NCBI RefSeq assembly: GCF_007830055.1
Contig: NZ_VLLE01000006.1
Span: 496,001-560,000 of the forward strand
Direction: 5' to 3'
Source: Lacibacter cauensis
Lineage (GTDB): Bacteria > Bacteroidota > Bacteroidia > Chitinophagales > Chitinophagaceae
DNA length: 64,000 nucleotides
Position numbers and translations under genes: made by a program. Below, piece by piece: positions 1,756 through 4,959 of the stretch (position 1 is the stretch's first letter; every line of letters begins with the position of its first letter). The notes under the pieces are model-generated. The model did no database searches. It was not told where the DNA came from and saw only the letters and a list, made by a program, of their open reading frames with translations.

Positions 1756-4239
1756 ATGAAGGCAACCAAAACCTGCATTTTTTTCCTGCTGCTTGTGCTC
1801 ACCTCGGTTTCCTATGCCCAGAAAAAATCGGCAACGGTAACGGGTAAGGTATTGGACGAAAATGAAAATCCGCTCAGCAAAGTATCGGTGATTATTCTCG
1901 GTCGTTCCACCGGTGTTACCACGAACGACTCCGGCTATTTCAGCATAAAGGTGCCCGCCGAAAAAGCGTTTGCACTTATTTTCAGTTATACTTCCTATCG
2001 TTCCGAACAGCGTAATTTCTTTTTAAATGAAAACGAAAAAGAAAATATCGTACTCCGTTTGGAAAGAGGCGCCACCGAACTGCAGGAAGTGATTGTAAAA
2101 GACGACCGCATCCGTACACAGGCATCGGCTATGCGCATCAACCCAAAAAATGCATTACTGCTGCCAACAGCAACCGGTGGTGTGGAAGGATTGATCAAGA
2201 TCTTCACCAACTCCAACAACGAACTCTCTTCACAATATTCTGTACGTGGCGGCAACTACGATGAGAACCTCATTTATGTAAACGATTTTGAAGTGTATCG
2301 TCCTTATCTCGTACGCCAGGGTCAGCAGGAAGGTTTGAGTTTCATTAATGCCGAAATGGTGCGCAACTTAAATTTTTACAATGGTGGTTTCCAGGCACGC
2401 TTTGGCGATAAGATGAGTAGTGTGCTCGACATTCAATACAAACAGCCTAAGAAATTCGGCGGCTCGGCATATGTTTCCTTACTGGAACAGGGTTTACATT
2501 TTGAAGGTGGCAGCAAAGATGAAAAAGTAAGTTTCATCATCGGCGGAAGAAACCGCAGCAACCAAAACCTGCTGAGCAGTCAGCAAACAAAAGGCAACTA
2601 TGTGCCTTCGAGTAACGATGTGCAGGGTTATATCACTTATCAGCCCAACACAAAATGGCTGTTCGAAGCCATGATGAATTACTCCCGCACACAGTTTAAA
2701 CTATCGCCGGAGTTCAGCAGCCAAACCGCATCTGTGTTCTCTCCTTTCTTCACCGCCAACCTTGGTTTGGATATTTATTTTGCCGGTGCTGAGCGTGACC
2801 GTTACAGTACAGCCATGGCCGGTATTGCTACAACTTATCAGCCAAACAAAAATTTAAAACTGAAATGGATGCTCAGTCATTTCAGTAATAACGAAGAAGA
2901 GTCGTTCGATATACAAGGCGCCTACTTATTCGGTGAGCGAGATTTCGACAGAAGCCGTGCAACATTCGGTTTAATTGTAAACCCATTGGGTGCAGGTGTG
3001 TTCCAGAACTTCGCACGCAACCGATTAAACATTGCTACGCAAAATGCTACACACAAAGGCAGCTTATCCAAAGGCAAACATTTTTTCCAGTGGGGTCACA
3101 GTCTCGAACGTCAAACTATCAGCGATCAACTCAACGAATGGGAGCTGACAGACAGTGCCGGTTATACGTTACCGTTCGATCCCAATCAACTGCAGTTGAG
3201 TAAAGTCATCAAATCAAAAGCTGATCTTAGTTTCGTCCGCACCAGTGGTTATGTGCAGGACAATTATATTCTCAACGACTCACTGAACATGACGCTGCAG
3301 GTTGGTGTGCGTTACAATTACAACACACTTAACAATGAAGTATTGGTGCAACCAAGAGTACAATTTGCGATGCAGCCCCTGCATGGAAAAGATATTGTAT
3401 TTCGTGCAGCAGCAGGTGCCTATCATCAGCCTCCATTCTATAGAGAGTTACGCCGTTACGATGGCACGGTGAACGAATCGGTGAAAGCGCAAAAAAGCTT
3501 GCAGGTTGTTGCAGGTATTGATTATAATTTCAAAGGCTGGGGTAACCGTCCGTTTAAATTACAAGCTGAAGCTTATTACAAGCGCATGACCGATATTGTG
3601 CCCTACGATGTTGACAATGTACGCATCCGTTATTTCGGCAGTAACAGTGCCAAAGCTTATGCAACAGGTATTGAAGCCCGTTTGTTTGGCGAGTTGGTGA
3701 AGGATGCAGAAAGCTGGCTGAGTATTGGTTTGATGCGCACACGTGAAAACTTAGACAACGATCAATGGTATAATTACAAACTTGATTCGTTGAATCGTCC
3801 TATCGACAGTACATTAGTACAAGGCGGTTGGATCAGAAGACCAACAGACCGTTTGCTCTCCGTTGGTTTGTTTTACCAGGATTATCTTTCTACCAATAAG
3901 AATTTCAAGTTCACCATGAGTGGATTGTATGGTACGAACCTGCCGTACAACATACCCAACAGTGTAAAGTACCGCAATGCATTAACGATTGATCCGTACA
4001 TCCGTGTTGATTTTGGTTTCAGTGCGTTGTTGTTAGATGGAGAGAAAAGTAAACGCCGCAGCCGCAATCCGTTCCGTGAGTTTAATACTATCTGGGCAAG
4101 CCTGGAAATATTTAATGTGATTGATCGACCTAATACCATTTCTTATTTGCTGATTAAAGATTTCAGCAATACCGTTTTTTCAATCCCCAACCGTTTAACA
4201 CCGAGGCTCGTGAATTTTAAGATTGTGGCGAGGTGGTGA
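1756..4239 (+). CDS. TonB-dependent receptor with carboxypeptidase-like regulatory domain
   Basis: Outer-membrane active transporter energised by TonB; the substrate cannot be told from sequence. The 827 residues begin with a signal peptide (MKATKTCIFFLLLV...SYAQ). A CarboxypepD_reg-like beta-sandwich follows at roughly 25-105 (TVTGKVLDENENPLSKVSVII ... VTTNDSGYF). The plug domain at roughly 120-240 includes SSQYSVRGGNYDENLIYVNDF and NFYNGGFQARFGDKMSSVLDI. The rest is an outer-membrane barrel ending in Trp. There is no adjacent SusD gene, so it is not an obvious glycan-uptake pair. Monocistronic. Confidence 0.9.
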   Translation: MKATKTCIFFLLLVLTSVSYAQKKSATVTGKVLDENENPLSKVSVIILGRSTGVTTNDSGYFSIKVPAEKAFALIFSYTSYRSEQRNFFLNENEKENIVLRLERGATELQEVIVKDDRIRTQASAMRINPKNALLLPTATGGVEGLIKIFTNSNNELSSQYSVRGGNYDENLIYVNDFEVYRPYLVRQGQQEGLSFINAEMVRNLNFYNGGFQARFGDKMSSVLDIQYKQPKKFGGSAYVSLLEQGLHFEGGSKDEKVSFIIGGRNRSNQNLLSSQQTKGNYVPSSNDVQGYITYQPNTKWLFEAMMNYSRTQFKLSPEFSSQTASVFSPFFTANLGLDIYFAGAERDRYSTAMAGIATTYQPNKNLKLKWMLSHFSNNEEESFDIQGAYLFGERDFDRSRATFGLIVNPLGAGVFQNFARNRLNIATQNATHKGSLSKGKHFFQWGHSLERQTISDQLNEWELTDSAGYTLPFDPNQLQLSKVIKSKADLSFVRTSGYVQDNYILNDSLNMTLQVGVRYNYNTLNNEVLVQPRVQFAMQPLHGKDIVFRAAAGAYHQPPFYRELRRYDGTVNESVKAQKSLQVVAGIDYNFKGWGNRPFKLQAEAYYKRMTDIVPYDVDNVRIRYFGSNSAKAYATGIEARLFGELVKDAESWLSIGLMRTRENLDNDQWYNYKLDSLNRPIDSTLVQGGWIRRPTDRLLSVGLFYQDYLSTNKNFKFTMSGLYGTNLPYNIPNSVKYRNALTIDPYIRVDFGFSALLLDGEKSKRRSRNPFREFNTIWASLEIFNVIDRPNTISYLLIKDFSNTVFSIPNRLTPRLVNFKIVARW

Positions 4240-4280
4240 TTGTAATCCGATAGTTATTAGTTTGTAGTTGATAGTTTTTA
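4240..4280. repeat. Intergenic tract of reiterated GATAGTT-type words
   Basis: Degenerate repeats of GATAGTTATTAG / GTAGTTGATAGTT directly after the TonB-dependent receptor and before the DUF559 element. Similar in style to tracts at 779-860 and 14217-14294. Confidence 0.4.
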
Positions 4281-4293
4281 CCGGCAGAATATT

Positions 4294-4354
4294 TATCCCC
4301 TCTCGGGAGGGGTCGCAAGTTGTTACACAGAAACTTAACCGTAAGGGGTGGGTT
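4294..4354 (+). repeat. 61 bp palindrome-headed repeat, copy 1
   Basis: Starts TATCCCCTCTCGGGAGGGG (6 bp palindromic arms CCCCTC/GAGGGG), then a spacer with TGTTACACAGAAAC and TAACCGTAAGGGGTGGGTT. It aligns without gaps to 4419-4479 with only a handful of substitutions. Confidence 0.85.
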
Positions 4355-4418
4355 TAACTGATCAGCCGCTTGAAAATCTAAATTTTAGTTTCCATCTTTA
4401 TACAACATTCAAACTGTC

Positions 4419-4479
4419 TATCCCCTCCTGGGAGGGGCCGCAATATGTTACACAGAAACCTAACCGTAAGGGGTGGGTT
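4419..4479 (+). repeat. 61 bp palindrome-headed repeat, copy 2
   Basis: Same unit as 4294-4354. The palindrome core CCCCTCCTGGGAGGGG (4422-4437) has perfect 8 bp half-sites except for the central TG. The repeat ends 3 bp before the ATG of the DUF559 gene, so it forms the immediate 5' leader of that gene. Confidence 0.85.
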
Positions 4480-4482
4480 ATC

Positions 4483-4959
4483 ATGAAACGCACAATCATT
4501 CCATACACGCAACAAGCTTTAACGAACGCAAAATGCCTTCGAAAAAACATGACGTATTCTGAAGTAAAGCTGTGGATTGAATTACGCAACCGAAATATGA
4601 TGGGTTATGATTTCGACAGACAAAAGCCCATGCTGAATTATATCGTTGATTTTTATTGTAAAGATTTGATGCTCGCAATAGAAGTGGACGGAGTAACACA
4701 TGAAGACGAACATGTAACAATAAAAGATCCAATACGTCAGGAAGAAATTGAAGCTTATGGAATTTCTTTTTTAAGAATAAATGCTCTAGATGTAGTGCGG
4801 GATATGAAGAACACATTACGAACTATTGAGAACTGGATAATGGACTTTGAAGAAAAAAACGGTGTGAACGAATTTGTAAAAAGAAAACGAGCTCTTTTGG
4901 AGAAACTTGAAAACCCACCCCCACCCCTCCCAGGAGGGGATAACCCGGCAGATGACTAA
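4483..4959 (+). CDS. DUF559-family (Vsr/restriction-endonuclease fold) protein
   Basis: 158 residues from the ATG at 4483. I chose this start because the family domain begins there and the upstream frame is repeat sequence. Family landmarks are LRKNMTYSEVKLWIELRNR (Glu27), YIVDFYC (Asp56), LAIEVDGVTH (Glu67, Asp69, His73) and GISFLRI. These match DUF559 proteins, which are related to very-short-patch-repair and PD-(D/E)XK nucleases, so a DNA-cutting role is likely but unproven. The last ~15 residues (NPPPPLPGGDNPADD) are translated from an inverted copy of the flanking repeat, so repeat and gene are physically joined. No methylase or other restriction gene is nearby. Confidence 0.85.
   Translation: MKRTIIPYTQQALTNAKCLRKNMTYSEVKLWIELRNRNMMGYDFDRQKPMLNYIVDFYCKDLMLAIEVDGVTHEDEHVTIKDPIRQEEIEAYGISFLRINALDVVRDMKNTLRTIENWIMDFEEKNGVNEFVKRKRALLEKLENPPPPLPGGDNPADD
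4912..4942 (-). repeat. Inverted, shortened copy of the palindromic repeat inside the DUF559 3' end
   Basis: Read on the minus strand it begins TATCCCCTCCTGGGAGGGG, 19 bases identical to copy 2, then jumps to GGGGTGGGTT, lacking the ~30 bp middle of the other copies. Palindrome core at 4924-4939. It encodes the Pro-rich C-terminal tail of the DUF559 protein. Confidence 0.8.

Follow-up and report, generated by a model that had tools for sequence, protein, structure and literature searches.

In the REP/REPIN systems, a single chromosomal gene for the enzyme RAYT (TnpA-REP), an HUH Y1 transposase, lies between inverted hairpin repeats. The repeats of these flanks also occur dispersed in tens of copies, singly or in pairs, each consisting of a hairpin and a short conserved tag (GTAG/CGTC), and they outlast the enzyme. 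EDxHD homing endonucleases, such as I-Bth0305I, are associated with group I introns and inteins, invade conserved genes and are distributed patchily; a DUF559 gene has already been placed in this family (PMC9403480). Rickettsia palindromic elements (RPE) are palindromic repeats found in frame in coding genes, where they are tolerated (PMC2229807), and as far as described they have no enzyme gene. Finally, the DUF559 protein VsrA of Caulobacter was reported to cause an SOS response unless YGCCGGCR motifs carry their cytosine methylation and was proposed to be a mismatch-repair enzyme; as far as described, neither repeats nor mobility is reported for it (PMC12907096).

The locus described here lies in a window of 64,000 nucleotides from Lacibacter cauensis, the whole stretch of DNA that was analysed. 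Similar to REP/REPIN and RAYT, it combines one chromosomal enzyme gene between inverted hairpin repeats with tens of dispersed solo or paired copies of the same repeats, which also consist of a hairpin plus a short conserved tag and also outlast the enzyme. Different from RAYT, its enzyme is a nuclease of the EDxHD/Vsr type, its tag is CCTCACCCC or AACCCACCCC (GGGGTGGGTT in the window and GGGGTGAGG elsewhere), and many units are in frame within essential genes. With I-Bth0305I it shares a related catalytic domain, the invasion of conserved genes and a patchy distribution. Unlike the EDxHD homing endonucleases, however, no self-splicing intron or intein is evident around the DUF559 module, with the reservation that their motifs were not searched; the module has as its boundaries palindromic repeats that are dispersed on their own as well, occupies many unrelated sites and is nearly absent from phages. 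Similar to RPE, a solo repeat was found in frame in LeuRS and the repeats encode linkers and tails of proteins, but the autonomous form encodes a nuclease. Inverted ends are common to this element and classical insertion sequences; the protein that it encodes is a DUF559 nuclease rather than any known transposase, and the candidate duplication is sequence of the element itself. No known family fits on all defining features: the element is not a RAYT, not an insertion sequence and not clearly an intron-borne homing endonuclease. We interpret the locus, with a probability of about 0.8, as a putative undescribed mobile element that is organised like REP/RAYT with a nuclease in place of the Y1 transposase. 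The initial annotation had raised this possibility, and it remains the reading best supported by the repeat copies, the flank statistics and the recurring tail. Although its parts are known, we could not find the DUF559-repeat partnership in the open-access literature: no open-access report linking DUF559 to palindromes or to in-frame insertion was found, nor any described enzyme for these palindromic repeats. Most sources were covered at the level of title and abstract only and subscription journals were not covered, so an earlier description is possible.

The features of the locus are listed in Table 1. Between 4293 and 4945 their order is R (62 bp), R (62 bp), DUF559 gene and an inverted short R'. 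R1 and R2 are direct repeats with 90% identity across 61 bp, and both are headed by the palindrome CCCCTC-N4-GAGGGG. A third palindrome (4924–4939) lies inside the open reading frame, within the inverted and shortened repeat copy, and this region of the frame encodes NPPPPLPGGDNPADD. These are the only three matches to the palindrome in the whole window, versus 0.42 expected. Thus, the direct repeats, the palindromes and the DUF559 gene described in the initial annotation were confirmed from the window sequence, as was its claim that a third copy encodes the tail of the nuclease. It had also pointed to the octamer CCGGCAGA on both sides. Both positions were verified, but as a footprint of insertion, that is, a target-site duplication, the octamer was rejected: the right copy is part of the element's conserved right end, which at other insertion loci too reads GGGGATAACCCGGC(A/G)G..TGA, and the left copy falls within a leader that is conserved in the repeat. 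Neither a target-site duplication nor an excision product was found for the element. An AT-rich stretch, tagtttgtagttgatagt (4234–4280), is located between the upstream receptor gene and R1, and it recurs before repeats in congeners.

Table 1. Features of the DUF559 locus, in window coordinates.
Feature	Coordinates	Strand	Remarks
R1, solo long repeat	4293..4354	+	palindrome 4297–4312; tag GGGGTGGGTT at 31–34 nt
R2, long repeat, left end of the putative mobile unit	4418..4480	+	palindrome 4422–4437; last base 2 bp 5' of the start codon
DUF559 (PF04480) nuclease gene	4483..4959	+	158 aa; ATG 4483, stop codon 4957–4959
R', short inverted repeat, right end of the unit	4912..4943 (approximate)	-	tag 2–5 nt from the hairpin; encodes the C-terminal PPPPLPGGDN of the nuclease
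Entire putative mobile unit (R2, gene, R')	4415..4955	+	conserved at two other loci, in five congeners
Left octamer CCGGCAGA	4281..4288	+	within the conserved leader of R
Right octamer CCGGCAGA	4945..4952	+	within the conserved right end of the unit

The assignment of the gene to DUF559 in the initial annotation was borne out by Pfam (90.7 bits versus a cut-off of 20.6, E = 6.9e-26), and no Y1 domain was among the Pfam matches of the protein. All 14 residues that were invariant among 28 aligned sequences are kept in it. In a search of solved proteins with the DUF559 profile, 3hrl (4e-36) and the homing endonuclease I-Bth0305I (3r3p, 3e-5) were matched, and the match to Vsr was not significant (0.2). 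The predicted structure of the protein (mean pLDDT of 87.6) also had 3hrl and I-Bth0305I as its top fold matches, the latter at rank 2–3. By profile and structural model, the nuclease is a predicted member of the EDxHD/Vsr branch of the PD-(D/E)XK fold. Its dN/dS ranged from 0.07 to 0.11 against five relatives and from 0.04 to 0.12 in all pairs among the relatives, suggesting that the nuclease is under purifying selection.

Absence of the repeat from the rest of the genome and from relatives would have refuted the idea of a REP-like system. Pattern searches, on which all genome-wide copy counts are based, found 24 copies of the palindrome CCCCTCCNNGGAGGGG in the 4.95-Mb genome (at most 2 mismatches) and none of the reversed pattern; 10–23 copies were present in five related species with this nuclease. 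The copies align as one unit, in which the hairpin TTATCCCCTCC..GGAGGGG precedes the GGGGTGGGTT tag. In solo copies the distance between hairpin and tag was bimodal, being 31–34 nt in 16 copies and 2–5 nt in 5. The window gene has a long-type repeat as its left end and a short-type repeat as its right end, so each of the two ends of the element is also represented among the dispersed solo copies. Some of the dispersed repeats are located inside other genes. The genome contains only two DUF559 genes. The second one, on contig C2, lies between inverted copies of another palindrome, CCCCATCCCCTGAAGGGG, of which there were 17 copies and no control match. It is positioned at the argF-argB junction, in frame into ArgB, where the distal repeat codes for a short peptide within ArgB. 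About 35 host codons are also enclosed by these two repeats; thus, the unit is not always clean. Chance or low complexity as the source of the repeats was ruled out by the reversed-pattern controls and by the shifted-window controls given below.

Homologs of the window element were identified in 5 of 13 congeners, always as R-gene-R' and always with a repeat-coded tail (PPQPLPGGDNPAVE and variants). They occupy two other loci, lipoprotein/RidA (G151, G154 and G159) and tyrA/aroF (G156 and G157). When the elements of all three loci were aligned, the homology extended from about 4415, at R2, to about 4955, from repeat to repeat, and the flanks differed between loci. At the window locus, which follows a TonB-type receptor gene, a solo R without the nuclease gene is present in six congeners and a decayed R in a seventh, and R is absent in others. 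The aroF locus, occupied in G156 and G157, carries a solo R in the L. cauensis genome. At the RidA locus no repeat was found in unoccupied congeners. Moreover, the nuclease of G157 at the aroF locus was nearer to the RidA-locus nucleases of G151 and G159 than to the nuclease of G156 at the same locus. The argB junction is empty in seven congeners and occupied in L. cauensis, G152 and G156; in G154, G157 and G158 it contains an inverted repeat pair without a nuclease, similar to a REPIN or MITE. In these three genomes (L295, L297 and L296, respectively) the nuclease-less pair takes the place of the argB start and provides ArgB with a new N-terminus (MQKAFFNSEVTTSSPPGRSGGA...). The order of events between solo R and occupied site is unrooted, and a solo repeat might also be what remains of an element that was lost; at the aroF locus, for instance, recombination between two direct R copies would leave a single R. 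A point against a mobile unit is that repeats also occur in genomes without this nuclease: compared with 10–23 copies in the six genomes that have it, three such genomes have 25 (G150), 12 and 4 copies, and the remainder have 0–1.

Beyond the genus, the modules are often part of other proteins. Of 114 DUF559 domains from the same family, inferred to be Chitinophagaceae, 60 were located in long frames, and about half were in frame within, or fused to, other proteins through repeat-coded linkers, which read LTPNPSPKERG ... SPSPLERELEGEV. The host families of these insertions and fusions, confirmed with Pfam, number more than 20 and include LeuRS, MetRS, an IleRS-like enzyme, chorismate synthase, MetH (at several sites), CinA, Lhr helicase, adenine deaminase, a GHMP kinase (homoserine kinase by sequence), HisA/HisF, ArgB, GcpE, a methylmalonyl-CoA mutase fusion, HsdR, HsdS, MmeI-like and Eco57I-like enzymes, PriA and UvrC. 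The host frames are continuous through the insert and no intron is needed, as judged from open frames only, with no search for intein or intron motifs. Unspliced production of the interrupted host proteins is thus an inference from these open frames. Two sites in LeuRS were found in different states. Site A is empty (12–15 residues between anchors), carries an in-frame solo repeat (25 residues, L097) or contains a full module (159–182 residues); site B is empty (19–28 residues, with no repeat) or contains a full module (151–197 residues). In L053 and L055, one LeuRS gene each contains two DUF559 modules, at sites A and B. Insertions of this kind into essential enzymes lie outside the window and hence were absent from the initial annotation.

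In a tree of 189 domains (115 columns), of which many forks were unresolved, short-branch clades mixed MetRS, CinA and adenine-deaminase hosts as well as chorismate-synthase (AroC) and LeuRS hosts. Host labels required 12 changes on this tree versus 36.8 when shuffled. The presence of closely related modules in unrelated hosts implies that the module moved between unrelated genes along with its repeats. The type of repeat also followed the nuclease clade in the whole set (18 changes versus 36 shuffled), but not significantly in the cross-phylum subset alone (10 versus 12.5). A strict one-to-one match between repeat type and nuclease clade is supported by these figures for the whole set only.

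Comparative genomics thus demonstrates, at the level of sequence, the structure of the unit, its association with repeats, its movement between loci and hosts, the dispersal of its repeats, the existence of both occupied and unoccupied sites, and purifying selection. The DNA cutting and the copying are inferred, as is binding or cutting by the nuclease of its own repeat; neither cleavage nor movement was observed directly. In our reading, the DUF559 endonuclease gene is enclosed by two hairpin-forming repeats in inverted orientation, of which the left one is long and the right one short, and R-nuclease-R' moves as one whole. The ends also exist as dispersed non-autonomous copies, either as solo R or as nuclease-less R-R' pairs. 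In the proposed mechanism, the nuclease may nick or cut DNA at or near the palindrome, or at a target, and a repair process may then copy either the complete unit or just its ends into the cut site, in the manner of endonuclease homing. A unit landing in a gene would persist if the whole insertion is in frame and in a tolerant loop, and would be translated within the host protein without splicing. Any single cutting route is less probable than the mobile-element reading.

A tentative alternative, which we regard as possible but unlikely, is that the repeats are independent, of the REP or MITE type, and that DUF559 is a homing endonuclease that targets the palindrome and is flanked by it because it invades it. 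Consistent with this, of the three loci that are occupied in the genus, two carry a solo R in relatives, which suggests that pre-existing palindromes are a preferred target; moreover, the nuclease fold is closest to that of a homing endonuclease, and each genome has one nuclease and many repeats. However, no repeat is found at the unoccupied RidA and LeuRS site-B sites, where the repeats may have arrived only with the element, distinct long and short ends travel with it, and the repeat family varies by nuclease clade, with the statistical reservation given above. Because homing and the mobile element have most predictions in common, our confidences in the two overlap.

The mobile element organised like REP/RAYT may have a counterpart in Escherichia coli. 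The repeat CCCCTCGCCCCTCTGGGGAGAGGGTTAGGGTGAGGGG is located on the downstream side of ycjD, a DUF559 gene of E. coli. Of 5426 E. coli genomes, 5395 contain this repeat, with a median of 18 places in each. The name 'box C' may apply to it, but no confirmation was found in the open-access literature. In K-12 MG1655 (L313), the final SPSP of YcjD is coded by a hairpin arm. Thus, the repeat-coded proline-rich tail, whose recurrence the initial annotation had left to be asked, recurs both in the congener homologs and in YcjD, and the anatomy of YcjD appears similar to that of the window nuclease. On the upstream side of ycjD no matching repeat was found, so this case is one-sided. Both L313 and L312 were recorded as instances of the same nuclease-repeat partnership.

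That the ycjD repeat is near-universal in E. coli also speaks for the proposal that these are domesticated systems for repair or regulation. In such a system the nuclease would act on cruciforms or mismatches, and the repeats would be either the sites at which it works or elements that regulate it, to the benefit of the host. The effect of Caulobacter VsrA on the SOS response is in vivo evidence that DUF559 proteins damage DNA, and its proposed role in mismatch repair means that some DUF559 members may be domesticated (PMC12907096). As a general explanation, however, domestication is improbable: DUF559 is distributed patchily (77 of 150 genomes of the same family) and is located at different loci in sister species, and these features, like the insertions within essential enzymes and the nuclease-less pairs, point to a selfish element more than to a regulatory one.

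Having inverted palindromic flanks is characteristic of DUF559 in general. In our test, the 250-nt upstream flank was aligned locally to the reverse complement of the downstream flank, and a score of at least 30 was counted as a pass. In the same family, where 112 loci with the 114 domains were retrieved, 65 of 113 domains passed versus 0 of 316 outward-shifted windows of the same loci; when the downstream flank was swapped for one from another genome, about 5% passed. An independent scan of named genomes found inverted flanks at 47 of 75 usable loci versus 4 of 1299 matched windows. These loci came from at least ten phyla, including Bacteroidota, Chloroflexota, Pseudomonadota, Cyanobacteriota, Acidobacteriota, Omnitrophota, Nitrospirota, Patescibacteria and Ignavibacteriota, and the commonest flank motif, CCTCACCCCnAACCCCTCTCCnnnGGAGAGGGG, was much alike across phyla. 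Eight more loci were taken from large replicons of Cyanobacteria, Deinococcus and Proteobacteria, and inverted repeats were seen at seven of them. Lack of any association between DUF559 and palindromes in relatives would have refuted the initial annotation; instead, 58–63% of domains were flanked versus 0–0.3% of matched windows. It had also asked whether DUF559 genes are always flanked; about 40% of the loci had no inverted pair by this test, some of them with one-sided or degenerate repeats, which counts against the mobile-element reading. In addition, within the same family DUF559 was present in 26 of the 31 genomes that contain the palindrome CCCCTCYCCNNNGGRGAGGGG and in 51 of the 119 that do not (Fisher p = 4e-5, or 1.5e-4 once genomes with only nuclease-adjoining copies were removed; not corrected for phylogeny). 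DUF559 is rare on plasmids and phages (3 of 50,697 phage records). That dispensable DUF559 genes merely gather repeats that insert everywhere, as the dispersal of the repeats, within other genes too, might suggest, is very hard to reconcile with inverted pairs tens of nucleotides away on both sides, with a block that is kept between loci and jumps with its repeats between unrelated host genes, and with purifying selection on the nuclease.

We lean, with less confidence than for the mobile element itself, towards a broader proposal: that DUF559 nucleases are the missing enzymes behind the pan-bacterial CTCACCC-tagged repeats, including the roughly 18-copy ycjD repeat, and that together they form a new class of mobile elements that spreads by cleavage and repair and survives in frame and unspliced in essential enzymes. 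Bacterial genomes are strewn with such palindromic repeats, which leave odd peptides (LTPNPSPKERG, PLPSPxGEG) in annotated proteins, and DUF559 is a candidate partner enzyme for this large class of unexplained repeats, one of them in E. coli. If true, a dedicated nuclease would explain the origin of the repeats, reveal a second independent route to REP-like elements, and add a homing-type element that tolerates translation within LeuRS, MetH or chorismate synthase. The similar ycjD arrangement makes the idea directly testable in E. coli K-12. Finally, many DUF559 'domain fusions' in databases would be mobile insertions.

Some further arrangements of in-frame modules were observed. In L049, a type I restriction HsdR contains a GIY-YIG domain plus an in-frame DUF559 module. 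In seven Pedobacter genomes (L221, L225, L238, L249, L252, L255 and L264), DUF559 is fused to the N-terminus of HisF through the repeat-coded linker PPLGGGGG. In L165, the neighbouring frame ends with a repeat-coded tail (ASPNPSKGGA).
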